Positions 12,108 to 38,947 are shown, numbered from the stretch's first letter. The stretch: 64,000 nt of DNA from Phycisphaerales bacterium (GCA_020352515.1 CP070678.1:4142934-4206933); one strand, 5' to 3'. Numbers and translations: made by a program. Notes: generated by a model from the sequence alone, not told the origin.

Positions 12108-15100
12108 ATGCGCAAGACAACACTTTCGATCGTGGTCGCGTCCGTCCTGCTATTCGGGATGACGACCCAGGCGGCAGATGTCACTGTCCCGGGGGATACC
12201 ATCCGGGGTGTTCCGAACGACGGAGATTGGCCTTCCGGCGAAGCACCCCCGCTGGCGATTGACGATGACATCATGACGAAGTATTTGCATTTCAAAGGAG
12301 ACTTCAACCCCGATCCGGGGACAGGTGGCACCGGTTTTAGAGTTACGCCATCGGCCGGGCAGACTATTGTGACCGGACTGACTTTCACTACAGCGAACGA
12401 CTATCCGGGTCGTGATCCTGTTGCATACAAGCTCTCGGGTTCGAATATAGGAATTGCTGGGCCGTACACGTTGATTGCCGAGGGCCCTATTGTTGATTTC
12501 CGCCAGGCGACTGAGTGGCCGCGCCGGACAAAGAATAGAACTCCGATTTCGTTTGCCAATGGGACGGCGTACTATCACTACGAGCTTTTGTTCACGGCCA
12601 TTCGGAGCGTGTCAAGCGGATGGATCGATAGTATGCAGATTGCAGAAGTTGAGCTACTGGCGCAGGTGGTAAAGGCCCATGACCCAATGCCCAGCGACGG
12701 CGCCGAAAATGTGGGGCCGCACGAGAACCTGGGGACGCTGAGCTGGTCTGCAGGCGACAGCGCGGTATGGCAGTACGCGTATTTCGGGACGAACGAGAGT
12801 GCTGTGGCCAGCGCGACAACGACGTCTCCGGAGTTTGTGGGCAGGCTGAGTGCCGTGCAGACAACGATCACACCTGCCCGTGAGGCGGACACCAGCTATT
12901 ACTGGCGGATCGATCAGGAAGAAAGCGATGGCCACATAGTGAAGGGCAACGTCTGGAGCTTCACGACGGCACCGTTGAAGGCGATCGATCCGGTTCCGGC
13001 AGACGGCGCCGGGCATGTTAGTCCGGATGCCGGGCTTTCGTGGACTGGCGGCTGGGATTCGTCCGAGGGTTTCGATGTGTACTTCGGCACGAGTGAAACC
13101 GCCCTGACCAATGCGAGTCCGGAGAGCCCTCAGTGCGTAAGCAAGGGCCAAGTGGCGCCCTCGTATGATCCCGGGCCGCTGAAGAGGGACACTACGTATT
13201 ACTGGCGGATCGATGACAGGGGGACGAGCACGTACAAGGGTGATACGTGGAGATTCAGAACGGTCTGGTGGGCGCAACCCTATAGTAGTCCCGGCTACGT
13301 GCGGTGCGTGCCCGGCAACGGCGGCAGCTTGAAAACCTCCGGCCCGAGCGCGCTTACGGTCACAGTCAATACTTCCGACAAGAGGCAAACGATCCGCAAC
13401 TTCGGCGCATCCGATTGCTGGTCCGCGCAGTACGTCGGCCAGTGGCCCTCTGCCAAGCGGAACGCGATTGCCGACCTCTTGTTTGAGACGGGCCTCGACG
13501 CTGCGGGCAATCCCAAAGGTATCGGCCTGTCGCTGTGGCGCTTCAATATTGGCACCGGCAGCAACAGACAAAACGACATCCCGGACATTTGGAGAAGGAG
13601 CGACATTTTTCTGTCAGCTGATTACACCTCGTACGACTGGTCGGCTCACCCCGGACAGCGCTGGTTCCTGCAGGCGGCAAAGGCTCGCGGCGTCAAGCAG
13701 TTTCTGGCCTTTCTCGGCAGCCCGCCGATAAACATGACCAAAAACGGAAAGCCTTATTGTGACAGCAACTCCGGCAGTACAAATCTGAGGAGCGACAAAA
13801 TTGATGACTTCGCTGCCTATCTTACGGCTGTTCTCAAGCATTTCAGGGACGCCGAAGGCATAGACTTCGGCTACATCAGCCCCGTCGGCGAGCCGCACTG
13901 GGATTGGGATGGGACTGATCAGGAGGGCTGCAGGTATGACAATAGTGACATCAAGGCGCTAGTGGACGCCTTGCACAGCGAGCTGGTCAGTGAGCAAGTT
14001 GCCACGCAGATCCTGATTCCCGAGGCAGGCGACATAGGGTATTTGTACGGCCAATCCAGCACACGGGGAGATTACATTGACTCGTTCTTCGGGGACGTGA
14101 GCCCCAACTATCTCGGCGACAAGGTGGCACGGAAGGTCGCCTGCCACAGCTACTTCGCAGGTTGGCCCGAGGACGACAGGCTTGTGGGCATGCGCGAAAT
14201 TCTCCGGAATAAGCTCAATCAATACCGCGGCCTTGAGTATTGGGCGACCGAATACTGCATACTCATTCCGGAAGGTTGGTGGGTCCCGCCAAAATATTGG
14301 GGCTACGGCAACAGACGCGATCTAGGCATAGACCCTGCCCTATGGGTCGCCAGGATTATCCACCATGACCTGACGGTGGCAGAGACTTCAGCGTGGCAGT
14401 GGTGGCTTGGCATATCGCCCTATGATTATAAGGACGGCCTTGTGTACGTGGACAAGAGCACGAGCGGGGGCAACTATTACGAGTCGAAGATGTTGTGGGC
14501 GATGGGCAACTTCAGCCGGTTTGTCAGACCGGGCATGCAGCGTGTAGCGGTCGATCGCTCGGACAACGCAACTGCGCGCGATACCGTCAAGGACCTGATG
14601 ATCTCGGGCTACTACCATGCTGATAGTGGCACCGTGGTTGTCGTATTTGTAAATTGGGCACATCAAGACGAGCCGGTGGGACTGAGATTCCTCGGCGCAG
14701 ACGTGGACATGCTGATTCCATATGTCACCAAAGGCGATTCAGGCGCCAGGGACAATCTGACTGCATACAGCGTGCTTGCCCCGGATGATACTATCCGCGT
14801 TCCCGCGCGGTCCGTCGTGACGATAGTTGGAACATGCGCCGATCCACACGACCGCAACGGGGACAGGGACGTGGACTTCAGCGACTTCGCGGGCTTCTGC
14901 TCGCACTGGCTCGAGACAGACTGTGGCAGGTGCGGCGGGGCGGACCTGACCAGAGACGGCAGCGTGGGCTTTGATGATCTTGGGCGCTTCGTTACGGATT
15001 GGCTGAGACGCCCCGGTCCGGTGGCATGTTGGCACCTGGACGAGAGTTCCGGCAGCGTCGCTTACGACAGCTCGGGCAGTAAGCACGGCACGCTTTATGG

Positions 15101-15620
15101 CGAGCCTATCTGGTGGCCGGGCGGCGGGAAGATAGACGGCGCCCTTGAGCTGGACGGGATTGACGACTATATCAGCGTGCCTTTCGTGCTTGACCCTGCG
15201 GCTGCGCCGTTCAGCGTTTTTGCGTGGGCCAAGGGAGGTGGGCCGGGACAGGTCATCATATCTCAGCTGGACTGCACAATCGGCCGTATTACCTACCTCG
15301 GCAGCACGTGGCTGGGCACAGATCCGTCGGAGGGCGGACTCATCACCGGTTTAATGGAGATTCCGTTCGGTGCGCTGGAGTCGGGACATGTAATCACCGA
15401 CGGCGAGTGGCACCATGTGGGCCTTGTATATGATTGCGACGCGTCGCAGAGGCGCCTGTACGTCGATGGAGTCGAGGTCGCCGCGGACACGAGTCCGGTG
15501 GGCGGGGTCAGTTCGGGAGGATCTCTGTATATCGGCGCGGGAAGGTACCTAGGCGCAGGTGGCTTTTTCTCCGGCCTGCTGGACGACATTCGGATATACG
15601 ACCGAGCGGTGAGGCCGTAG
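12108..15620 (+). CDS. Secreted GH30-type glycoside hydrolase with dockerin-like and LamG modules
   Basis: The protein has 1170 aa: signal peptide (1-22), a discoidin-like sandwich (about 25-185), two fibronectin III-like modules (about 185-390), a GH30 catalytic barrel plus side sandwich (about 415-905), a dockerin-like module (about 910-965) and a LamG/concanavalin-like domain (about 970-1170). It resembles the endo-beta-1,6-galactanase branch of GH30. Likely catalytic residues are Glu595 in SPVGEPHWDW (acid/base) and Glu715 in YWATEYCIL (nucleophile). Clan GH-A normally has Asn before the acid/base Glu; here it is Gly. The Shine-Dalgarno is weak (TTAGGCG). The substrate is inferred only at family level. 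Confidence 0.85.
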   Translation: MRKTTLSIVVASVLLFGMTTQAADVTVPGDTIRGVPNDGDWPSGEAPPLAIDDDIMTKYLHFKGDFNPDPGTGGTGFRVTPSAGQTIVTGLTFTTANDYPGRDPVAYKLSGSNIGIAGPYTLIAEGPIVDFRQATEWPRRTKNRTPISFANGTAYYHYELLFTAIRSVSSGWIDSMQIAEVELLAQVVKAHDPMPSDGAENVGPHENLGTLSWSAGDSAVWQYAYFGTNESAVASATTTSPEFVGRLSAVQTTITPAREADTSYYWRIDQEESDGHIVKGNVWSFTTAPLKAIDPVPADGAGHVSPDAGLSWTGGWDSSEGFDVYFGTSETALTNASPESPQCVSKGQVAPSYDPGPLKRDTTYYWRIDDRGTSTYKGDTWRFRTVWWAQPYSSPGYVRCVPGNGGSLKTSGPSALTVTVNTSDKRQTIRNFGASDCWSAQYVGQWPSAKRNAIADLLFETGLDAAGNPKGIGLSLWRFNIGTGSNRQNDIPDIWRRSDIFLSADYTSYDWSAHPGQRWFLQAAKARGVKQFLAFLGSPPINMTKNGKPYCDSNSGSTNLRSDKIDDFAAYLTAVLKHFRDAEGIDFGYISPVGEPHWDWDGTDQEGCRYDNSDIKALVDALHSELVSEQVATQILIPEAGDIGYLYGQSSTRGDYIDSFFGDVSPNYLGDKVARKVACHSYFAGWPEDDRLVGMREILRNKLNQYRGLEYWATEYCILIPEGWWVPPKYWGYGNRRDLGIDPALWVARIIHHDLTVAETSAWQWWLGISPYDYKDGLVYVDKSTSGGNYYESKMLWAMGNFSRFVRPGMQRVAVDRSDNATARDTVKDLMISGYYHADSGTVVVVFVNWAHQDEPVGLRFLGADVDMLIPYVTKGDSGARDNLTAYSVLAPDDTIRVPARSVVTIVGTCADPHDRNGDRDVDFSDFAGFCSHWLETDCGRCGGADLTRDGSVGFDDLGRFVTDWLRRPGPVACWHLDESSGSVAYDSSGSKHGTLYGEPIWWPGGGKIDGALELDGIDDYISVPFVLDPAAAPFSVFAWAKGGGPGQVIISQLDCTIGRITYLGSTWLGTDPSEGGLITGLMEIPFGALESGHVITDGEWHHVGLVYDCDASQRRLYVDGVEVAADTSPVGGVSSGGSLYIGAGRYLGAGGFFSGLLDDIRIYDRAVRP

Positions 15621-23623: not shown

Positions 23624-24400
23624 TTACTCGCTCGTCTTCGCCTTCTTCTTGCGCGCCGACATGTAGCTCAGCACTATCCCAAGCTCGAACAGCGCGTACA
23701 GCGGCACCGCCAGGGTTATCTGCGAGATTACGTCCGGCGGTGTCGCCACAGCCGCCACTACGAACGCCCCCAGAAAAACGTATTTGCGCGACCTGCGAAG
23801 CGCCGCGATCGAAACAAGACCCGTCCGGGTCAGTATGAAAATGGCTATAGGGGTTTGAAAGCCGATGCCGAAAACCAGCATAAGCATCGTCATAAAAGAT
23901 ACGTATTTCTGCAGCGTCCAACTGGTCTTAACGCCGATCAAATCACCGAACGTCAGAAAGAAACGTAGCGATATCGGCGCAACCACGAAAAGGAAAAACA
24001 GCGCGCCTGCCACAAAAAGCGACACCGAAAACGGGACCGTAACTCGCACATACCGCCTCTCATTCGGGTACAGGCCCGCCGCCACGAACATCCACAACTG
24101 GTAAAAAACCCACGGAGAAGACAGAATCAATCCCGCAATCAGTGATATTTTCATATACGCTATGAACGAATCGGCCACGCCTATAACGATTAGCTTCTCC
24201 GGGGTCAGGCTCGTATACGGGTACTCTATGAACTTGATTATCTTCGTGCCGAAGCACAGGCTTATGATGGTCCCGATGACAAGACCGATGATCGCCAGGA
24301 TCAGCCGCGCGCGCAGCTCCTCCAGGTGGTCGCCCAGACTCATCGTCGTGTCAATGGGGTCCAATTTCTTCTTGCGCTTCTTCTTCTTGGTCTCGCCCAT
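23624..24400 (-). CDS. tatC: Twin-arginine translocase subunit TatC
   Basis: This is the inner-membrane receptor core of the Tat pathway for folded proteins, 258 aa with six predicted membrane segments. Visible family features are the N-terminal cytoplasmic motif HLEELRARL, SPWVFYQLWMFVAAGLYPNERR and the fourth-segment motif FGIGFQTP, where many TatC have FExP (Gln replaces Glu). The N-terminus carries an unusual Lys-rich run (TKKKKRKKKL). It lies 48 bases after tatA on the same strand. Nearby Tat substrates include the amidohydrolase and both aldo/keto reductases. Confidence 0.95.
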   Translation of the reverse strand: MGETKKKKRKKKLDPIDTTMSLGDHLEELRARLILAIIGLVIGTIISLCFGTKIIKFIEYPYTSLTPEKLIVIGVADSFIAYMKISLIAGLILSSPWVFYQLWMFVAAGLYPNERRYVRVTVPFSVSLFVAGALFFLFVVAPISLRFFLTFGDLIGVKTSWTLQKYVSFMTMLMLVFGIGFQTPIAIFILTRTGLVSIAALRRSRKYVFLGAFVVAAVATPPDVISQITLAVPLYALFELGIVLSYMSARKKKAKTSE

Positions 24401-25620: not shown

Positions 25621-27090
25621 TTACTTGCCCCAACTTACGTTTTCCAGAACTTTGCTCTTGCGCTCGAGATTGAAAATCCTGCGGGCGTTCTCGTGCATTA
25701 TCAAATCCGCCGCATCCATTGCATCCTCAACGCCAAGCCACCCCTCCTCGACCAATTCCGACAGCGCCAGCGCTATTCCGCGCCTGGCCACGGTTGCGTG
25801 GCCCAGAACCGGCTCGACGGGAATATAATCGCCTCCGAATGTCAGAATCTTGTTTGCCGGGGCGGTGACCAGGTATTTTTTCAGGAAGTCCTTCGCAGCT
25901 ATCGGGTTGATAATCCACGACCAGCACATGTCCACGTACGCGTTTGCATAATGCTTTGCAACGGCGAGCATCTGCTCGTAATACGGATAGCAGATATGCA
26001 TGAATACGAATCTTGTCTCCGGCGCGGCGCGGCACAGGTCTGTTGCTGAGCCGGCGTTCTTGATGAGCCGGGCCAGAGGCATGTTGTTCTGGCCGGCGTA
26101 GTATCCCGTGTGCAACTTGACAGGCAGCTTGTGCTCGGTCGACTTTTGGACCGCATACCAGAAGAGGTGGTCCTCGAGCATTTTCTTCTCGCGCGGCGTC
26201 AGCCGGTCTTTGGCGAGCCTCTTCTTGAAGATGGGCTCTGCTTTCTCGACCGGGACCCGCTCGTAATCGATGTCCCGGCTGTAGGCGTTCTGAGATTTAA
26301 CGGCCACGGCATACTTGCCGTATTTGGCGAACCACCAGTCTATCACCCGATGCCAGTCGGACAGGCCGGCGACTTTGATCCCGGTCGGCTTGTCGATCCG
26401 ACCGATGCCGGGCCCGGCAAACATCGCCACAATGCTCAAATCCTGCATCAACAATGTCGGCATGTCGGACTCGCCGAACGGGCTGCTCAAACAGTTGACC
26501 TGGCAAGATTGGATGTTCGCCATCTCGCACAGAATCCGCCTGTAGAAGCCGGGCCGGCGCACTTTCTCATATTGTGATTGCACCCTGGCGACGGTCCGGC
26601 CCGAAAGCTCGGTGACGCCGTAAAGCTCCCTCATCGCGATGGCAACGGCCTGGCCGTATCCCGTGTTCTTGACGGCCGGCCAATAAGGCGCCAGCAGCGC
26701 CCACTTGCCGGCAGGGTCGGTGCCGGGGGAAAAGAACTTCTCGTACGAACCCTGCGGCATCCCCGCAACAATCATATCGGAGTTGAGATAGTGGCTCAAC
26801 AGCAGGCTCCAATCGTCACTTCTTACCCTCGGATGAGATGTGCCTGCAAGACGTTCTCTCTCTTCGATGAGATGCTCGTGCGTATCGACAAACGGCGTTC
26901 GGAAGACCTTCTCGAATATGGCCCTTCGTGCATTTCTTCGGCCCCCGGGCGTCTTCGGGCCCGAGCGAGTCTGCTCTTGCCCTGCTGCCGCGCCCGAGCC
27001 GAGGATCGCCGAAGCGCCTATTGCGCCCATCCCCTGCAGCGTTAGTCTTCTTGAAATACGTTCCTGTGCCTTCAAATCACCTGTGCCCAT
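25621..27090 (-). CDS. Tat-exported metal-dependent amidohydrolase (Amidohydrolase_2/uronate-isomerase-like)
   Basis: The protein has 489 aa from ATG 27090, which GGAG precedes by 8 bases. A longer frame to 27246 lacks a signal. A twin-arginine signal (ISRRLTLQGMGAIGA) leads to the barrel. Metal-site motifs are VDTHEHL (HxH), KLHTGYY, FVFMHICYPY and TFGGDYIP, an order typical of Amidohydrolase_2 and uronate isomerase-type enzymes. Export is inferred from the Tat signal, and tatA/tatC lie two genes downstream. The substrate is unknown. Confidence 0.82.
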   Translation of the reverse strand: MGTGDLKAQERISRRLTLQGMGAIGASAILGSGAAAGQEQTRSGPKTPGGRRNARRAIFEKVFRTPFVDTHEHLIEERERLAGTSHPRVRSDDWSLLLSHYLNSDMIVAGMPQGSYEKFFSPGTDPAGKWALLAPYWPAVKNTGYGQAVAIAMRELYGVTELSGRTVARVQSQYEKVRRPGFYRRILCEMANIQSCQVNCLSSPFGESDMPTLLMQDLSIVAMFAGPGIGRIDKPTGIKVAGLSDWHRVIDWWFAKYGKYAVAVKSQNAYSRDIDYERVPVEKAEPIFKKRLAKDRLTPREKKMLEDHLFWYAVQKSTEHKLPVKLHTGYYAGQNNMPLARLIKNAGSATDLCRAAPETRFVFMHICYPYYEQMLAVAKHYANAYVDMCWSWIINPIAAKDFLKKYLVTAPANKILTFGGDYIPVEPVLGHATVARRGIALALSELVEEGWLGVEDAMDAADLIMHENARRIFNLERKSKVLENVSWGK

Positions 27091-27272
27091 CGAATCGCTC
27101 CTAAAACCGCAAATTTCGTTTTGACCAGCGGCATTACTGCAGGGGTAGCGCCTTTCGAAACCGGCTTTGTCCCTCCTTGACCTTGCCGGTTCCACCATTG
27201 ACAATGACATACCAAAGACTATAATCGCCCTGAGCTTCAGGGTCAAGCAAATGGGTCTTGTTGGAGTTGGCG

Positions 27273-28307
27273 ATGGCTTCCGTCCCCGGCCGAAATAAAC
27301 GTCTCGAATCCCTTGTAAGCATCGTCTTGCTGGTTATGCTCCTGATTGTCGGCCTGGGTGTCGTTATGAGGCAATCCGATGTGGACATGACCCGGTTCGG
27401 GATCGGCCTTGATGTCAGCGGGCCGCCCGCAGAGCCGGAAGAGCCGGCTTCACCCGCGGTGCTTGATCTCGACTCCTTTGCCCCGGACGGATTCAAGACT
27501 GTCTCAGCCGCGCGGACCTACGGACCCGAGAATCTATACGAGAAAATCAACGGCAAGGCGCCGCTCTATACCGACTCGGGATTTGTGAGCCTGTCCACTC
27601 AGCGGTTTGTCAGCACAGCGGATGAGAATCTCTGGATAGAGCTTTTCATCTACGACATGGCGGCGCTTAGAAACGCCTTCAGCGTCTACAGCCTGCAAAA
27701 GCGCCTTGACTCTCAAGCACTGTCGGCCTTGCAGTATGCCTACAGCACGAGCAGCGGCGTTTACCTGGTGTGCGGCGGATACTACGTCGAGCTGATCGGC
27801 TCGGCCGAATCGCCCGGGCTGCTCGGGGCAATGAAGCCGATTGTGGACAGGCTCAAGATGACTTTGCCCGACGAGGAGGCGGGCCGAATAGCCGAGCTGG
27901 AGTTCTTTCCCCCGGAGAACCGCGTCGCCGGCAGCGAGAAACTATACCTTGCGAATGCCTTCGGATTCGAGGGCCTTGAAAACACCTTCGTTTGCCGGTA
28001 CGAGACGGGAGGGCAGGAGGTCACGGCGTTTCTCGGCAAGGGCGCCGACCCGCAAGCCTCGCTGGCCGTTGCAAAGGGCTACTGCGACTTTCTGATCGAA
28101 AACGATGCAACGCCTGCTGAGGCCGCCGGCGAGACGATCAGGGCCGCTTCCGGGCGAGTGTTCGATTTTTACGGAACGACCGAGATTGTCTTTGCGGTGG
28201 GGCCTTTCTTCGGCGGAATCCACGAGGCCGAAGACAAAAGAACCGCCGAACAACTCGCGGAAACACTAATCATCAGACTAACCGAAGCGGCAAAAGAATC
28301 GAAATGA
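27273..28307 (+). CDS. DUF6599-type membrane-anchored protein
   Basis: The protein has 344 aa. GGAG precedes ATG 27273; a TTG 15 bases earlier is also in frame. One N-terminal membrane segment (about 13-33) is followed by an extracytoplasmic region. Landmarks ENLYEKINGKAPLYTDSGFV and IELFIYDMAALRNAFSVYS match DUF6599 as I know it. It is the first gene of a five-gene run and overlaps the next by 4 bases (ATGA), which implies translational coupling. Function unknown; it probably works with the DUF362 protein and polyferredoxin at the membrane. Confidence 0.75.
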   Translation: MASVPGRNKRLESLVSIVLLVMLLIVGLGVVMRQSDVDMTRFGIGLDVSGPPAEPEEPASPAVLDLDSFAPDGFKTVSAARTYGPENLYEKINGKAPLYTDSGFVSLSTQRFVSTADENLWIELFIYDMAALRNAFSVYSLQKRLDSQALSALQYAYSTSSGVYLVCGGYYVELIGSAESPGLLGAMKPIVDRLKMTLPDEEAGRIAELEFFPPENRVAGSEKLYLANAFGFEGLENTFVCRYETGGQEVTAFLGKGADPQASLAVAKGYCDFLIENDATPAEAAGETIRAASGRVFDFYGTTEIVFAVGPFFGGIHEAEDKRTAEQLAETLIIRLTEAAKESK

Positions 28308-29299
28308 CCGAACAGACCGGAAACAGGCTCGAGCGACGGGAATTGCTTCTTCGCTCCGTCAAGGCGGGCGTCTCGATTGCCGCCGCAGGGCTGGTTTCGG
28401 CCGCCCTTTATGATTCGGACGGACCGGGCAGCGGCCTGGATGCCGAATCGCTCGTGACGTTCAAGGATTGGGCTGTGACGCCCGAGCCCGGCCGGACGAT
28501 GAGCATCGTAAGAGGGCCAGATCGCAGGGCGACTGTCACAAAGGCCATAGATCTGCTCGGCGGCATCAGGAGGTTTGTCAAACAGGGGCAGACGGTTGCA
28601 ATAAAGCCGAACGTTGCATTCGCCTCGCCCGCGATGCTCGGCGCGACCGCCAACCCCGAGCTTGTCGCCGAGGTCGTGAAGCTCTGCCGTGACGCGGGCG
28701 CAAAGCGGGTGATTGTCACCGATAACCCGATCAACGAGGCCGCGAGCTGTTTCATGCTTACGGGCATCCGCGGGGCGGCCGAGCTTGCCGGCGCAAAGGT
28801 CGTTTTGCCGAGGCAAAGCCACTTCAGGAGTACCAGCCTCGAAGGCGGAAGGCTTATAAGGAGCTGGCCCGTTTACTTCGAGCCCTTCGCGCGGGCCGAC
28901 GCTCTGATCGGCATAGCTCCGGTCAAGCACCACCAGAGAAGCGGCGCCTCGATGACGATGAAGAACTGGTACGGACTGCTGGGCGGCCCGCGAAACGTCT
29001 TCCACCAGGACATAAACACGATTATCGCCGAGCTTTCGATGATGGTAAAGCCGAGCCTGGTGATACTCGACGGCACGGAGGTTATGATGACCAACGGGCC
29101 GACGGGCGGCTCGCGCGCGGACTTGAGGCGCGCCGATACCATGATTGCAAGCTGTGACATGGTGGCCGCCGATTCTTTCGGCTGTACGCTGCTGGGGCTA
29201 AAGCCCGCGGATTTGCCCTATCTGGCGGCTGCCGCGCGGGCCGGTGTGGGAACAACGGATTACCAATCCCTCAAACCCGCATCGGCGGTTTTGAGCTGA
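28304..29299 (+). CDS. DUF362 domain protein with Tat-like N-terminus
   Basis: The protein has 331 aa. The N-terminus LERRELLLRSVKAGVSIAAAG looks like a twin-arginine signal with an imperfect motif. The DUF362 domain (about 85-320) shows VAIKPNVAFASP, VIVTDNPINEAASCF, GIAPVKHHQRSGASMTMKN and VILDGTEVMMTNGPTGG. DUF362 proteins are often fused or linked to ferredoxin modules. No Fe-S cysteines are seen here, so the adjacent polyferredoxin may supply them. Start and stop are tightly packed with both neighbours. Confidence 0.83.
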   Translation: MTEQTGNRLERRELLLRSVKAGVSIAAAGLVSAALYDSDGPGSGLDAESLVTFKDWAVTPEPGRTMSIVRGPDRRATVTKAIDLLGGIRRFVKQGQTVAIKPNVAFASPAMLGATANPELVAEVVKLCRDAGAKRVIVTDNPINEAASCFMLTGIRGAAELAGAKVVLPRQSHFRSTSLEGGRLIRSWPVYFEPFARADALIGIAPVKHHQRSGASMTMKNWYGLLGGPRNVFHQDINTIIAELSMMVKPSLVILDGTEVMMTNGPTGGSRADLRRADTMIASCDMVAADSFGCTLLGLKPADLPYLAAAARAGVGTTDYQSLKPASAVLS

Positions 29300-29309
29300 G
29301 AGCGTAACC

Positions 29310-31049
29310 ATGAAGATTGTTCAGGCAAGACAAATAAGTCAGGTTTTCTTCTTCGCGATGTTTGTCTGGTTTTCCATAGTCAGCAGTTTGGGCGAGAAGC
29401 TATGGCAGATTCGCGGCTGGCCGGTCAAGTGGTTTCTGCATCTCGACCCCCTTGCGGCAATCGGAACAGTGCTCAGCACGCACACGCTCTATCGGCCGCT
29501 CCTGTGGGCCCTGGTGACAATTGTCCTGACGATAGTCTTCGGGCGGTTCTTCTGCGGCTGGGCATGTCCCTTCGGCTCGGTGCACCATTTTGTGGGATAC
29601 CTCGGCAGGCATGACAAATCCGCCGCCCGGAAGATACAGCTCAACGCATACAGAAAAGCCCAGGCCCTCAAGTACATCATCCTGGCAGTGTTGCTGGGCA
29701 TGGCCGCTTTTCCCTCTGTTGCCGCCACGCTGCAGGTCGGCCTGCTCGACCCGATTCCGCTGGTGACCCGCAGCTTCGATTTGCTGCTCGTGCCTCTGCT
29801 CGACCGCTCGGCCGGCATAGCATCTGCAACGGAGCGATTCTACGAGGGGGCGTGGCTGGTCCTTGCGGTGTTTGGCACGGCTGTTCTTCTCAACCTCTTG
29901 ATCCCACGTTTCTACTGCCGCTTCATCTGTCCCCTCGGCGCGTTGTTCGCCATTCTCGGCCGCTTTGCATTCTGGAGAATCGGCAAAAGGAGCGGCGACT
30001 GCATCAACTGCCGGGCCTGCGAACGTTCGTGCGAAGGCGGCTGCGAGCCGGCCGGCAGGATACGGATGAGCGAGTGCGTGCTTTGCTTCAATTGTCTCGA
30101 CGACTGCGGCCACGAGGTAATCGGCTACCAGAGACGAAAGTCGGCGACCGGCGAAGTGACAGGCCCGGATGTCTCCCGCAGGGGCTTTGTGCTTTCGCTG
30201 GCCGGGGGCGTCTTTGCCGCCCCTTCGCTCAGGCTCGCCAGCAGGCTCGGCGGCAACCGGGGCCACACTATAATTCGGCCGCCCGGCGCGCTCGGCGAGG
30301 GCGAGTTTCTAAAGCGGTGCGTAAAGTGCGGCAAGTGCATGCGCATCTGTCCGACGAACGTCATTCAACCGGGCGGCATAGAGGGAGGCCTCGAGAACAT
30401 CTGGACACCCGTGCTCAACAATCGCATCGGTTCGAGCGGCTGCCAGTTGAACTGTACGGCGTGCGGCCAGGTGTGCCCCACATCCGCCGTAAGGCCGATC
30501 ACGCTCGATGAGAAGCTCGGCCGAGGCGCATTTGCCGACGACGGCCCAATCAGAATCGGCACGGCCTTCCTGGACAAAAACAGGTGCCTGCCCTGGGCCA
30601 TGGACAAGCCCTGCATAGTGTGCGAGGAAAACTGCCCGGTAAGCCCCAAGGCCATTTACACGCAGGAGTTGTTCAATATGGTCAGGGGCGGCGTTGTGAC
30701 AGTAAAAGAGCTGGCCGGGGACAGTATTGTCGTCGAGCAGAATCTCCCGCCGGGCAAATTCGCCGGAGGCGACTACTATCTTGCCGCCGCCGAGCACAGA
30801 AGCAAAATCATCGACAACACCGGCAGCTCAGTGGAAATCGTGACCGGCGGAAACCTGCGGGCCAATCTTGTCCCCGGTGCTATAATAGCGATTCAGGTCC
30901 GGTTGCAGCGGCCTTTCGTGGACATCGAGAAGTGCATCGGCTGCGGTGTCTGCGAACACGAATGCCCGGTTGGCGGCAAGAAGGCAATAAGGGTCTCGGC
31001 CGTCGGCGAAACCAGGAGCCCGGATAGAAGACTGTTGCTCGAACGCTAA
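29310..31049 (+). CDS. Membrane-bound polyferredoxin (NapH/NosR/CcoG-like)
   Basis: The protein has 579 aa. Membrane segments in the first 220 residues include the two NapH/NosR-type motifs FFCGWACPFG and FYCRFICPLG. Six further Cys clusters follow: CINCRACERSC, CVLCFNCLDDC, CVKCGKCMRIC, CQLNCTACGQVC, CIVCEENC and CIGCGVCEHEC. A hydrophobic RRGFVLSLAGG stretch (about 290-310) in the middle looks like an embedded Tat-type or second anchor segment, suggesting a fusion of a membrane ferredoxin with an exported ferredoxin. It should carry electrons from the membrane to the outside. Likely partners are the two downstream [4Fe-4S] aldo/keto reductase-like proteins. Confidence 0.88.
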   Translation: MKIVQARQISQVFFFAMFVWFSIVSSLGEKLWQIRGWPVKWFLHLDPLAAIGTVLSTHTLYRPLLWALVTIVLTIVFGRFFCGWACPFGSVHHFVGYLGRHDKSAARKIQLNAYRKAQALKYIILAVLLGMAAFPSVAATLQVGLLDPIPLVTRSFDLLLVPLLDRSAGIASATERFYEGAWLVLAVFGTAVLLNLLIPRFYCRFICPLGALFAILGRFAFWRIGKRSGDCINCRACERSCEGGCEPAGRIRMSECVLCFNCLDDCGHEVIGYQRRKSATGEVTGPDVSRRGFVLSLAGGVFAAPSLRLASRLGGNRGHTIIRPPGALGEGEFLKRCVKCGKCMRICPTNVIQPGGIEGGLENIWTPVLNNRIGSSGCQLNCTACGQVCPTSAVRPITLDEKLGRGAFADDGPIRIGTAFLDKNRCLPWAMDKPCIVCEENCPVSPKAIYTQELFNMVRGGVVTVKELAGDSIVVEQNLPPGKFAGGDYYLAAAEHRSKIIDNTGSSVEIVTGGNLRANLVPGAIIAIQVRLQRPFVDIEKCIGCGVCEHECPVGGKKAIRVSAVGETRSPDRRLLLER

Positions 31050-31070
31050 CAACTTTCGGAGTCCGAAACG

Positions 31071-32348
31071 ATGGAACAGACACTCAGCAGAAGAGACAGG
31101 AGGAGCTTTCTAAGAACTGTGGGCGCCGTCGGCTTGGGCTCTGCCCTACTACCAGCCCGGGTTTTTGGAGTCGCAAAAGAGGACGCCGCGAGCGAGTCGA
31201 AAAAACCGGAGAGGCCGGCAGACTCCGGGAAGCCGAAAATGCCCTTGCGGAAGCTGGGCAAGACGGGCGTGAAGGTCCCGGTCTTGTCCCTTGGGACAAT
31301 GTTCAACCTTCTCGACAACCAGATCATATTGCGCAGGAGCATGGACCTGGGCGTGACGTACTGGGATACCTCAAACGTCTATGCCGGTGGAAACAGCGAG
31401 CTGGGTATCGGCAAGTACCTCACCGACAATCCAAAGGCGCGCAAAGACCTGTTTATCGTGACCAAGGCGCTGAATGCAAAGGACGGCGAGGCGATGGAGA
31501 AGTGTCTCCAGCTCTCGCTGGCGAGGATGAAGACCACGTACATCGACCTGCACTTTTTCCACGACCTTCGTGACCCCGCTGACCTGAGCGACGATATTCG
31601 CATGTGGGCCCAGGGCGCCAAGAAGCGAAAGCTGATTCGTTTCTTCGGCTTTAGCACGCACAAGAACATGGCCCTCTGCCTTCGCGCGGCGGCAAAGCTG
31701 GACTGGATCGACGCGATAATGACGGTATACAATTTCCGGCTTATGCAGGATGCCGAGATGCAGGCCGGCGTCGATGCCTGTCACAAGGCCAAAATCGGCC
31801 TTGTTGCGATGAAGACACAGGGCATCGGGCCGGTAGCCAAATGGGCCGGCCATACGCCAAAGATCGAGACCGACGCCGACAGGAAGCTCGTCGATCACTT
31901 CCTCAAGCGGGGTTTGACGGAGGGTCAGGCCAAGATAAAGGTGGTCCTCGATGACAAGAGATTTGCCTCGGTCTGCGTGGGCATGGAGAACGTGGGCTTT
32001 CTCCGTTCGAACGTAGATGCGGTCACCGATAAACCGAAACTGACACGCCGGGACGTGGACGCGCTGAGGCGATATGCCGAGCACACGCGCACCGGTTACT
32101 GCGGCGGATGCGGCCATATCTGTGAGTCGGCGCTGCCCGAGGCGCCCTGCGTCAGTGACATTATGCGGTCGCTTATGTACTGCAACGGCTACGGCCGCCG
32201 TGACCTGGGGGCCGAGTTGTTCGCCTCTGTTCCCGCGTGCGTCAGAAGCAGACTGCTTGAAATCGACTACTCGCTTTCCGAGGCCCGGTGTCCCAACCGA
32301 CTGCCGATACAGCGGCTTGTGGCCGAGGCGGTCCGCGAGTTTGCGTAG
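31071..32348 (+). CDS. Tat-exported aldo/keto reductase with C-terminal Fe-S motif (1)
   Basis: The protein has 425 aa. The twin-arginine signal RRDRRSFLRTVGAVGLG is followed by a low-complexity linker, then the AKR barrel (about 55-350). The catalytic tetrad can be placed: Asp and Tyr in WDTSNVYAGGNSE, Lys in IVTKALN and His in DLHFFHD. The C-terminal YCGGCGHICESALPEAPC supplies four cysteines for a [4Fe-4S] cluster. The protein fits an exported AKR fed by an Fe-S electron source rather than by soluble NADPH. It lies 21 bases after the polyferredoxin, with a paralogue directly downstream. Confidence 0.87.
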   Translation: MEQTLSRRDRRSFLRTVGAVGLGSALLPARVFGVAKEDAASESKKPERPADSGKPKMPLRKLGKTGVKVPVLSLGTMFNLLDNQIILRRSMDLGVTYWDTSNVYAGGNSELGIGKYLTDNPKARKDLFIVTKALNAKDGEAMEKCLQLSLARMKTTYIDLHFFHDLRDPADLSDDIRMWAQGAKKRKLIRFFGFSTHKNMALCLRAAAKLDWIDAIMTVYNFRLMQDAEMQAGVDACHKAKIGLVAMKTQGIGPVAKWAGHTPKIETDADRKLVDHFLKRGLTEGQAKIKVVLDDKRFASVCVGMENVGFLRSNVDAVTDKPKLTRRDVDALRRYAEHTRTGYCGGCGHICESALPEAPCVSDIMRSLMYCNGYGRRDLGAELFASVPACVRSRLLEIDYSLSEARCPNRLPIQRLVAEAVREFA

Positions 32349-32388
32349 TACCCGTATCCATGAGACCCCGACTTTTTTGGAGCTTGCC

Positions 32389-33651
32389 ATGACCAGAGAA
32401 AAACCGAACCAGATCGATAGAAGAGATTTCATCCGGAGCCTCGGCGCCGCCGGCCTCGGCTCGGCGCTGGGAGGTCTCAGCGCATCTTTTGCGGCCTCCG
32501 GAGCCGGCGCCGCCAAAACCGATCCCAATACCGCGCAGCAGCCTGCGAAGCCGAAGGTCCCCCAGGTCCTGCGCCGAAAGCTCGGCAGGACGGGCGTAAA
32601 AATCCCCGCCCTTTCCTTCGGAACTTTCCGGGTGGATGTCGCCAACCAGATACTTTTGAGGAAGACCCTGCAGCACGGCGTCGACCTCTGGGACACCGCC
32701 TATAATTACTCCGGCGGAAACAGCGAGCTGGGAATCGGCAAGTTCCTCTCGAGAAACCAGAAGGTTCGCGGCAGACTCTTCCTTGCAACCAAGGCTTCGG
32801 GGGCCCGGAGCGTCGCGGATGTGGAGAAACGCCTGCGGACCTCTCTCGAGAGAATGAAAACCGACTATGTTGACCTGTACTTTGGCTTGCATCAGTGTTC
32901 GAACCCGGCTCTGCTGACAGAGGAGCTTGCAGCCTGGGCTCGAAGCGCCAAGAAGAGCAAGCTCATACGGTTCTTCGGCATCAGCACGCACCAGAACAGC
33001 GCTCAGGTCCTTGCCGCGGCCGCCAGGCTCAACTGGATTGACGCCATAATGACGCCCTTCAATTTCCGTCTCATGCAGGATGCGAAACTGCAGGCCGCCG
33101 TCGATGCCTGTCACAAGGCCAAAATAGGTCTTCTCGCGATTAAGGTCCAGGGAATGGGCCAGAGGATCAGCAGCGAGGCCGACAGAAAGCTCATCGAGCA
33201 CTTTCTCAAGCGGGACCTTACCGAGGGCCAGGCCAAGATCAAGCTCGTCCTCGAAGACGAAAGGTTCGCCAGCGCCTGCGTGGGCATGAAGAACCTGAAG
33301 GTGTTTAACGAGAACCTCGAGATTGCGCTGGATAAGAGCAAGCTGCCGGAACCCGACAAGGTCGCGCTGATGGAGCACGCCGAGGCGACCTGCAGCGGCT
33401 ACTGCGCCGGGTGTGCGAACATCTGTGCGTCGGCCGCGCCCGAAGCGCCCTGTATCGGTGACGTCATGCGTTATCTAATGTACTACAACGGCTACGGTGA
33501 GCGTGCCGAAGCGCGCCGCCTCTTCGCGCAAATACCTGCCGGCATAAGAAAAAGGTTGGCGGGCGTTGACTATTCTGCCGCCGAGGCCCGCTGTCCGCAG
33601 CGCATGCCCATAGGCGATCTCATGGGCGAGGCCATCGCCAAACTGGCCTGA
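32389..33651 (+). CDS. Tat-exported aldo/keto reductase with C-terminal Fe-S motif (2)
   Basis: The protein has 420 aa from ATG 32389, which GGAG precedes. It has a twin-arginine signal (DRRDFIRSLGAAGLGSALGG) and a linker, then an AKR barrel paralogous to the preceding gene over its whole length. Tetrad positions are WDTAYNYSGGNSE (Asp, Tyr), LATKASG (Lys) and DLYFGLHQ (His). The His lies six residues after Asp here instead of five, so the loop has one extra residue. The Fe-S motif YCAGCANIC plus a fourth Cys is conserved. The tandem paralogues suggest paired subunits or two substrates. Confidence 0.87.
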   Translation: MTREKPNQIDRRDFIRSLGAAGLGSALGGLSASFAASGAGAAKTDPNTAQQPAKPKVPQVLRRKLGRTGVKIPALSFGTFRVDVANQILLRKTLQHGVDLWDTAYNYSGGNSELGIGKFLSRNQKVRGRLFLATKASGARSVADVEKRLRTSLERMKTDYVDLYFGLHQCSNPALLTEELAAWARSAKKSKLIRFFGISTHQNSAQVLAAAARLNWIDAIMTPFNFRLMQDAKLQAAVDACHKAKIGLLAIKVQGMGQRISSEADRKLIEHFLKRDLTEGQAKIKLVLEDERFASACVGMKNLKVFNENLEIALDKSKLPEPDKVALMEHAEATCSGYCAGCANICASAAPEAPCIGDVMRYLMYYNGYGERAEARRLFAQIPAGIRKRLAGVDYSAAEARCPQRMPIGDLMGEAIAKLA

Positions 33652-33887: not shown

Positions 33888-34086
33888 GTAATGGAACGGT
33901 GAATGATTGATGGTTCTGGTTTCAGAGACGGGCGATGACGAGATTCTACTATCAAACTTGGCTTCCTTTCATAATTAACAAAAGGCGTATTCTTATTCTC
34001 ACAATTGCAAGCTATATAGCCTTGTGTTAAGCAGTACCGCACTTTTTGCTTCCCTTTTGCCGCCCTTGTACGGGGCGGTTTTTTTT
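33888..34086 (+). ncRNA. Candidate small RNA between a promoter and a terminator
   Basis: About 200 bases lie between the putative promoter at 33853-33881 and a strong intrinsic terminator. No reading frame longer than about 15 codons with a ribosome binding site was found. The stretch is AT-richer than its neighbours (33930-34030). It does not match SRP, RNase P or tmRNA signatures. It is a candidate only. Confidence 0.25.
34060..34086 (+). terminator. Intrinsic terminator
   Basis: CCGCCC (34060-34065) and GGGCGG (34073-34078) have a 7-base loop and are followed by eight T. It is a textbook terminator on the plus strand, 409 bases after the last redox-cluster gene. Confidence 0.85.
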
Positions 34087-36908: not shown

Positions 36909-38705
36909 TCAGTCAGCGCCCCAATCCTCGCATAGAAGCGCAAAATCAAGAAAGTCGACTCTTGTGTTGCCATCGAGGTCCGCACAGCCCTCGCCGGAGC
37001 ATCCCCCCACGTCCAGCCACTGCTCGGCGAAAATATCCACGTCCTCCCAATTCAGGTCACAGTCTCCGCTTAAATCACCTGCAGCCGGATCAGGGCAATC
37101 ATCCACAAGAACAATATGACAGACCGACAGCGCCGGCAGCGTGTACGAAAAGGAGTTGCCCACAATCGGCCCGACGGGTGCTATCTCCCTTATGCTCGAT
37201 CCGCTCCCGTCAAACGCCCACACCCGGCCGGCATCGAAGCTCCGCTTGCTCGTAATGGTGAATGAGCCTTCGATGGGAGATTCGAAATTCTTATTGATGA
37301 CGATAACGTGCAGCTCCCAGTCCGTTTGCTCAAAGACCGATGCGTAAACCGAGCTGGTTTGCTTGTCCGACATCTGCGAATAAACCCTCGTGTCGCCAAA
37401 CGTCGAGTTTGCCCCGTCGTAATTCCTGTAAATTCGGTATGCCGCCGAGACGTAGTCATAATCTCCGCCGAGATGCCAGTACGTCGAGAGATACATGCCG
37501 TACTCGCCGAAGATTCCAAGCACGTCCGCCATCGCGATACCGCCGGAGATGTGATCGGGCGCCCCGTAGCTGTACTCCGTGATCGATAGCTTCGTGCCCG
37601 GATAATACGATTCGATGGAATTCAGTATGTTCGGCAGAAGCGGCAGGTAATCGCTGAACCACGTGGCGATCCAACTATCCTCGGTATAATCCGGGTCCCA
37701 GAGTGTCCGCGGCGCCTGCATCCGCGCCTCGGCATTTGCCCTGGAATAGGCCGACTGTGATTCGGTGATTCTCCTGCCGTCGCCTCGGGCCTCTGGATAC
37801 CAGTGCAAATCGAGCACGTCGAGCAGGCGCCGGCCGCGTCGCCCCGTGGATGCCCGCATCTGATCCAGGTAATAGTCGATGAACCAGTCGTAGTTGTCCT
37901 TGACGTCGGCCCAGTCAGGCGCATCCTGAAGGCTCAGGTACGCGTTGAATCCGTAAAGCACGGGGCCCAGTATCTGCGCGTTTGGGTCGACGTCCTTGAC
38001 CGCCTCCGACAATGCTACACTCCTTGTGATAAGCTCCTCGCAGCGCAGCTTTTCGGGGTGAATCCGGGGATGGGTCGAGGCCCAGAGGGCGGGCTCGTTA
38101 TCCAGCGAATAACACTTTGCGCCCGTCGGGCTCGACGCGCCGCCGTAACGGCTTACAAGATAGTTGACGCACTCGTCCATATACACGTACGCGTCATCCG
38201 TATCCGGGGCCCCGGGCGGATTGCAGAAGGGGGCGCCCTTGGCATAAACGACCTGTTTCCATCGGTCCGACGGCGCGGTATCCGCTTCGTCCACCGTGCC
38301 GTCGTCATCGGCGGCGACAAAGCCGGCCATCTGGAGAGTCACGACCGAAAGCTGCCCGGCCGCGAGTGCCGAATCATGGAAGCGCGTCTGCATGATTCCC
38401 GGAACGAGCTGCTGCGAGCCGGGCAGACTTTGCACGAGGTAACGGTCGCTGTGGTGATACCAGTCGCTGCCCGCGTTCGAGTAGTTGTTCTCCCAGTTGT
38501 ACCCGGTCAGCCGGTTCCCGCCGCTTCTTCTGGCCGCCAGGTTCTCATCCCCGGAAAGACCCGGGTTCGAGCCGTAAATGTACGGGCTGATAGGCGCCCT
38601 CTGGGCCTCTGTCTCTATCGTGTAAACGACGCTGATCCCGCCGGCGGCGATTCCCGCCACCAACTCTGAACTCAGCAAAATCCCCATTGCCGTCAGGCGC
38701 TTCAC
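36909..38705 (-). CDS. Secreted GH44 endoglucanase/xyloglucanase-type enzyme with dockerin-like module
   Basis: The protein has 598 aa from GTG 38705 (GAGGAG 6 bases upstream; an upstream ATG at 38798 would bury the signal peptide). The GH44 signature is very clear: YIYGSNPGLSGDE, RRSGGNRLTGYNWENNYSNA and SDWYHHSDRY. Catalytic residues are Glu204 in SLDNEPALW (acid/base) and Glu377 in LSITEYSYG (nucleophile). A beta-sandwich (about 455-535) and a two-loop dockerin-like module (GDLSGDCDLNWEDVDIFAEQ and DLDGNTRVDFLDFALL, about 540-595) end the protein. GH44 enzymes cut beta-1,4-glucans such as cellulose derivatives and xyloglucan. Confidence 0.92.
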   Translation of the reverse strand: MKRLTAMGILLSSELVAGIAAGGISVVYTIETEAQRAPISPYIYGSNPGLSGDENLAARRSGGNRLTGYNWENNYSNAGSDWYHHSDRYLVQSLPGSQQLVPGIMQTRFHDSALAAGQLSVVTLQMAGFVAADDDGTVDEADTAPSDRWKQVVYAKGAPFCNPPGAPDTDDAYVYMDECVNYLVSRYGGASSPTGAKCYSLDNEPALWASTHPRIHPEKLRCEELITRSVALSEAVKDVDPNAQILGPVLYGFNAYLSLQDAPDWADVKDNYDWFIDYYLDQMRASTGRRGRRLLDVLDLHWYPEARGDGRRITESQSAYSRANAEARMQAPRTLWDPDYTEDSWIATWFSDYLPLLPNILNSIESYYPGTKLSITEYSYGAPDHISGGIAMADVLGIFGEYGMYLSTYWHLGGDYDYVSAAYRIYRNYDGANSTFGDTRVYSQMSDKQTSSVYASVFEQTDWELHVIVINKNFESPIEGSFTITSKRSFDAGRVWAFDGSGSSIREIAPVGPIVGNSFSYTLPALSVCHIVLVDDCPDPAAGDLSGDCDLNWEDVDIFAEQWLDVGGCSGEGCADLDGNTRVDFLDFALLCEDWGAD

Positions 38706-38947
38706 TGCACACTCCTCAGTCTTCGGCTCTGCGTCGGCGGCCCGAAGCCGACCCGTCGTCAGGGCTCTTCCGGCCGGAACGGTCGCCACACATATCATTA
38801 TAACATATCCGGCGGCCCCATGAAAACAACGGCTCGCATCCCCGGCGCTCAGGACGCACGGTACCGGCTCCGCGGGCAGAAGTTCAGCTCCCGGCGATGC
38901 ACCTATGCGAGCCTGTTAGAAGTCCCGGCGGATTATTGCATCTGTGC

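Follow-up and report, generated by a model that had tools for sequence, protein, structure and literature searches.

What might five tightly packed genes do outside the membrane when two of the parts they encode are domains without a known function and the remaining ones lack an assigned partner? This question is raised by a 64,000-nucleotide stretch of a Phycisphaerales bacterium (GCA_020352515.1, CP070678.1:4142934-4206933; the window below, with positions counted from its first letter), whose genome is a single contig of 5.84 Mb. All five open reading frames of the cluster were found on the + strand at 27273-33651, encoding a DUF6599 protein, a DUF362 protein, a membrane polyferredoxin, and two aldo-keto reductases (AKRs) with a twin-arginine translocation (Tat) signal. 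It is about an even call, in our judgment, that they form a self-contained, quinone-linked extracytoplasmic oxidoreductase; its enzymes might reduce or oxidise a small molecule that has a carbonyl group or is akin to a 2-hydroxy acid. The genes are as follows:

27273-28307, + strand, DUF6599 protein (Pfam PF20244, E 4.5e-41)
28304-29299, + strand, DUF362 protein with the Tat motif RRELL (Pfam PF04015, E 6.9e-42)
29310-31049, + strand, membrane polyferredoxin (Fer4_5 and several Fer4 models, Pfam)
31071-32348, + strand, Tat-signal AKR1 (Aldo_ket_red, PF00248, E 1.3e-20)
32389-33651, + strand, Tat-signal AKR2 (Aldo_ket_red, PF00248, E 3e-19)

The coordinates and the spacing (a 4-base overlap, then gaps of 10, 21, and 40 bases) are those given in a first-pass annotation of the window, which had proposed that electrons pass from the quinone pool or a membrane donor through Fe-S clusters to AKR domains outside the membrane. 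AKR2 is a paralogue of AKR1 with ~54% identity. The DUF6599 gene more likely starts at ATG 27273, and an in-frame TTG is also present at 27258.

The four kinds of gene recur together in other genomes. DUF6599 was scanned for in 294 genomes of the same phylum and matched in 68, and in the neighbourhoods read there DUF362 and the polyferredoxin adjoin DUF6599 in many families. A genome-wide scan with a DUF362 alignment yielded 563 relatives, and the best 80 of the 563, that is, the best matches to one DUF362 profile, were used as loci; their carriers include Planctomycetota, Desulfobacterota, Verrucomicrobia, Sumerlaeota, a Spirochaete, a Myxococcota genome, and others. DUF6599 lies upstream in 75/78 and the polyferredoxin downstream in 59/63 loci with enough sequence, and an AKR follows downstream in 46/53 loci with room. 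Of the 52 loci that extend far enough to either side, 44 have all four genes in this order on a single strand. Such an order recurring across phyla argues that the cluster is more than a product of chance. The evolutionary distances measured for each of the four proteins track one another (r 0.61-0.76), as is expected if the four genes move or descend together. Within the phylum, a strong Fe-S Tat-AKR occurs in 11 genomes and adjoins DUF362 in 10 of them (hypergeometric 1.7e-8, phylogeny ignored), and an orphan AKR in genome G132 lies near a contig start, where its context is unreadable.

Clustering of the neighbours of related loci gave no other gene that recurs beside the cluster across phyla. 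As candidates for further operon members it returned tatC in Phycisphaerae-type loci, kinases, and housekeeping genes, none of them cross-phylum, and these were set aside. A second, divergent DUF362-polyferredoxin-AKR set was noticed directly after the first cluster at one locus (L126, 12757-16767).

The membrane side of the unit is represented by the polyferredoxin. In NCBIfam, its N-terminal half matches NapH/MauN and its C-terminal half MauM/NapG, both below the curated cut-offs. The N-terminal half contains Fer4_5 twice, with the CxxxCP motifs C82-x3-C86P and C203-x3-C207P; its two [4Fe-4S] motifs are predicted to be cytoplasmic, and hydropathy peaks near residues 9, 60, 123, and 180 correspond to four spans. 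An internal Tat motif (SRRGF, residue 290) stands ahead of the outer half, and a twin-arginine (RR) motif is present in the linker of 78/89 relatives. The C-terminal half carries four [4Fe-4S] motifs with Cys sets at 337-347, 378-389, 426-442, and 542-552. Domains, motifs, and the Tat motif thus bear out the earlier description of a NapH-type membrane ferredoxin fused to an exported multi-cluster ferredoxin. The architecture is that of the known quinol-linked NapGH proteins, by analogy with which a quinone link is presumed. No Nap catalytic gene was seen among the recurrent neighbours of the cluster.

The AKRs had been described as bearing both a Tat signal and a C-terminal Cys4 motif, and the motifs agree with this. 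A Tat motif occurs in 74/79 AKR sequences, and 69-70 of 70 have the [4Fe-4S] ligands that in AKR1 are C344, C347, C351, and C407 (the last in a CysPro). The catalytic tetrad (D99, Y104, K132, and H164 in AKR1) is kept in every sequence covering it. Soluble enzymes that use NAD(P)H make up most of the AKRs with a solved structure, and several of them are among the PDB matches obtained here. A check of the NADPH site found that the positions which we take to contact nicotinamide (AKR1C9 numbering, mapped onto the window AKR by the PDB match) are changed: N167 is replaced by T, Q190 by M, Y216 by M, and S217 by K, and R276 is lost, while S166 and N280 are kept. At the level of sequence, these changes hint that free NADPH does not normally serve these AKRs as partner. 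Distant relatives at loci L061, L063, and L068 have a full two-cluster ferredoxin pattern, of which the window-type AKR keeps one cluster's ligands, and there DUF6599 adjoins the Tat-AKR without other genes of the cluster.

The source genome holds a small family of exported AKRs, with L004, L005, and L007 besides those of the cluster. At loci L066, L067, and L072, a cysteine-less Tat-AKR lies divergently beside DUF6599-DUF362-polyferredoxin, as if AKR types had been swapped.

The DUF362 protein is also exported by the look of its sequences, with a Tat motif in 95/96. Its AlphaFold2 model (predicted local distance difference test score, pLDDT, 88.7) was compared with the PDB using Foldseek: 11 of the 12 matches at E<0.001 are LarA-type proteins and the twelfth is 4nar, an unnamed Thermotoga protein, and the likeness to LarA is partial (template modelling score, TM-score, by query 0.33-0.47). 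A PDB search by sequence returned nothing useful. Residues K208, H210, K220, N221, and H234 are invariant in 97/97 sequences. In a profile comparison, H210-x9-K220 pairs with LarA His174-x9-Lys184 at low probability (24% and 6.5%), and H234 is matched to LarA His200 by spacing alone. N141 aligns with LarA His108 in a weak alignment, so that the two catalytic histidines are not both found, and no equivalent of LarA Arg75 was seen. The sole Pfam match of the protein is DUF362, and Lar_N is absent. LarA enzymes perform hydride chemistry, taking a hydride from 2-hydroxy acids, and another hydride reaction has been suggested for relatives without a catalytic residue (PMC7583248); the structure of a subfamily in which one histidine is Asn has been solved (PMC12611868). 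From the model, it is likely that DUF362 has a LarA fold.

Whether DUF362 also uses the nickel-pincer nucleotide (NPN) cofactor was approached by gene co-occurrence. LarE occurs in 21/21 carriers, LarB is above cut-off in 22/24 and 7/9, and LarC occurs in 19/21 and 7/9, and the base rate of LarC in the phylum is itself high (229/294 genomes). The source genome has LarB and LarE, and LarC was not found in it, whereas most of the other carriers possess the full set of LarB, LarC, and LarE. At least ten genomes of family f48 have LarC and no Lar_N protein that could be found, which would fit DUF362 as the cofactor client there. NPN dependence was nevertheless not adopted on this basis, as LarC is common in the phylum and missing in some carriers; on this mixed record DUF362 may or may not carry the pincer cofactor. 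As side observations, genomes of f48 including G199, G234, and G082 have LarB, LarC, and LarE with no Lar_N protein found, and G000, G295, and G302 have LarB (G000 also LarE) without detectable LarC, the known nickel-insertion gene.

DUF6599 has a single N-terminal membrane anchor by hydropathy (residues 19-37, taking the TTG start as residue 1), and the rest is predicted to lie outside the membrane; its AlphaFold2 model has a pLDDT of 88.7. In several families the polyferredoxin and DUF6599 form one protein of ~820 aa, which would place DUF6599 at the outer end of the electron wire. Since it is anchored, and either fused to the polyferredoxin or adjoining Tat-AKRs, it is most simply read as a part for docking or for binding substrate.

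The mechanism we propose builds on the gene unit, domain content, Tat motifs, cluster motifs, and conserved residues established from the sequences. The NapH-like half of the polyferredoxin would sit in the membrane and exchange electrons with the quinone pool, while the NapG-like half, exported by Tat from within the same polypeptide, would hold its four [4Fe-4S] clusters outside. DUF6599, anchored at the outer face, may be the docking or substrate-binding partner. DUF362, with its probable LarA fold, and the AKR-fold enzyme with its own [4Fe-4S] cluster would fold and load their cofactors in the cytoplasm before Tat export, and the electrons of the outer polyferredoxin would connect to both. 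Quinone coupling, complex formation, and the electron path are what we infer from this arrangement. Outside the membrane, the enzymes might act on a small carbonyl compound or one resembling a 2-hydroxy acid, by reduction or, in reverse, by oxidation. Substrate and direction are guesses: the chemistry of LarA and AKR enzymes prompts the former, and the precedent of NapGH favours reduction outside as the latter.

Running the same anatomy backwards gives a less probable alternative: the AKR and/or DUF362 would oxidise a 2-hydroxy acid or alcohol outside, and the polyferredoxin would feed the electrons to the quinone pool. The hydride abstraction by LarA-fold enzymes would suit it, and many carriers belong to sulfate-reducer lineages, in which periplasmic oxidation is common. 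Against it, no substrate gene recurs nearby, and characterised NapGH relatives, according to Tooke et al. (PMC5449189), run from quinol to the periplasm. Several observations also weigh against the proposed unit as a whole. The locus fractions describe closer relatives of one DUF362 profile; LarC is missing from the source genome, G295, G302, and G189, and LarB from G296; and the Tat-AKRs L004, L005, and L007 of the same genome, which lack Fe-S cysteines, share most of the cofactor-site changes, so that such changes are no proof of an Fe-S-fed AKR. Furthermore, in a large set of genomes DUF362 and a fused polyferredoxin-DUF6599 protein occur without an AKR of the window type, and in some of these, such as G199, DUF362 lies elsewhere in the chromosome. 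The AKR is thus not the sole possible end point, and it might be that DUF6599, DUF362, and the polyferredoxin are a core with a job of their own, for example a respiratory or detoxifying reduction at DUF362, to which the AKR is an accessory in some lineages. Among the four proteins, DUF362 indeed shows the strongest conservation, with a mean pairwise distance of 0.378 vs 0.496 for the AKR. We regard this as rather unlikely, given how often the AKR follows where there is room downstream and that DUF6599 pairs with Tat-AKRs even with no DUF362 or polyferredoxin nearby.

A more specific proposal is that DUF362 is an exported LarA-fold oxidoreductase with a nickel-pincer cofactor, or a LarC-independent relative of it, which does not racemise and instead passes hydride equivalents to and from the quinone pool by way of the polyferredoxin, the Fe-S AKR working on the same substrate. 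This is doubtful; if true, a pincer cofactor would for the first time be known in a net-redox role, and the periplasmic respiratory enzyme would be of a new kind. A role in envelope sensing or maintenance (folding, lipoprotein or thiol repair), with DUF6599 as sensor, is very improbable. Foldseek gave weak matches of DUF6599 to TP0453, RseB, and the PknH sensor domain, but the full-length matches have TM-scores by query of 0.12-0.28 and a large root-mean-square deviation, too weak to be used for assigning a function, and across phyla the cluster has no recurring partner of a thioredoxin-like or signalling type. It is hardly credible that the two AKRs work with NAD(P)H in the ordinary way and that the operon only groups redox genes loosely under one promoter: the fold and tetrad are intact, as in the soluble enzymes, but the conserved Tat motif, the near-invariant cluster ligands, the T, M, M, and K at contact positions, and the gene order kept across phyla all speak against it. 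A quinone-linked oxidoreductase with enzymes outside the membrane is retained as the preferred reading.

Around the genes, the following features were found:

27198-27225, + strand, promoter-like TTGACA-N16-TATAAT, sigma-70-like (12/12 match)
34059-34086, + strand, strong terminator-like hairpin with a T run, likely transcript end
23624-24400, - strand, tatC, nearby gene (Pfam TatC, E 1e-66)

The promoter-like site ends 48 bases 5' of the first start. Nine such sites were seen vs 2.1 expected in shuffles, and this is the sole perfect one; with the strong terminator-like site at the 3' side, it makes a single transcript likely. In 10 related loci, too, the cluster has close by a tatC-like gene, identified through its resemblance to the TatC of the window. 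A Tat-signal amidohydrolase (Amidohydro_2, E 5.7e-16; 25621-27246, - strand) is divergent from the operon, with which it has a common upstream region. Ordinary polysaccharide-degrading neighbours include a glycoside hydrolase family 30 protein with a lectin-like domain (12108-15620, + strand) and a family 44 protein (36909-38798, - strand).

The first-pass annotation had suggested that the AKRs perhaps reduce sugars or keto compounds made by secreted glycosidases. That link was set aside as unsupported, since carbohydrate genes are not among neighbours shared between phyla and the cluster is also found in sulfate-reducer genomes. Other parts of the interpretation are supported: the unit is co-conserved, the AKRs are of the Tat type, their nicotinamide-contact positions are changed, and the electron-input architecture is that of NapGH. 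The interpretation thus survives the two grounds named for dropping it, AKRs with a complete NADPH site in the cytoplasm or genes that are not co-conserved, while electrons may or may not reach the AKR. The Tat signal of DUF362, the internal Tat motif of the polyferredoxin, the promoter, the terminator, and tatC had been overlooked.

What emerges is a redox unit of four parts that sulfate reducers, Planctomycetota, Verrucomicrobia, and other groups have preserved as one set; relatives of its DUF362 protein turn up at hundreds of places in the genome collection. It offers a fold-based chemical hypothesis for DUF362, a physical partner for DUF6599, and candidate end enzymes for an exported NapGH-type polyferredoxin. 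Desulfosarcina alkanivorans is a cultured carrier in which these hypotheses can be tested. In the open-licence literature, we found no paper naming DUF6599 or joining an AKR with a polyferredoxin, and no description of this unit in work on DUF362, part of which treats the domain as a LarA outgroup (clan context in PMC11770544) and as able to nest an Fe-S motif; wider searches likewise yielded nothing relevant.

Several known systems share parts of this design. COG1453-like AKRs with a C-terminal ferredoxin motif presumably have the barrel, tetrad, and C-terminal cysteines in common with the window AKRs, which differ in being exported, in having one cluster (the first three Cys plus the distant CysPro), and in their changed contact positions. 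Glucose-fructose oxidoreductase of Zymomonas is likewise Tat-exported and active outside the membrane; unlike the window AKRs, it has a Gfo/Idh/MocA fold, bound NADP, and no Fe-S cluster. DUF362 belongs to one Pfam clan (CL0471) with DUF2088 on the LarA side (PMC11770544), and differs from LarA in being shorter, in its Tat-type signal, and in having no Lar_N match. The closest likeness to the polyferredoxin is the dual Sec-Tat polyferredoxin (PFD) family of NapH-NapG fusions, with four spans, cytoplasmic clusters, an RR motif before a fifth span, and four outer [4Fe-4S] motifs; both Sec and Tat are needed for it (Tooke et al. 2017, PMC5449189). The passages of that account considered here, in which Tat-dependence is shown by reporter fusions of one member, concern protein insertion and mention neither a function nor a DUF362 or AKR partner. 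NapGH quinol dehydrogenase resembles the window protein in its two matching halves and presumed quinone link, but consists of two proteins feeding nitrate reductase, whereas the window system has one polypeptide. The electron-input part is thus already known, and it is the assembly and the end enzymes that appear to be new.

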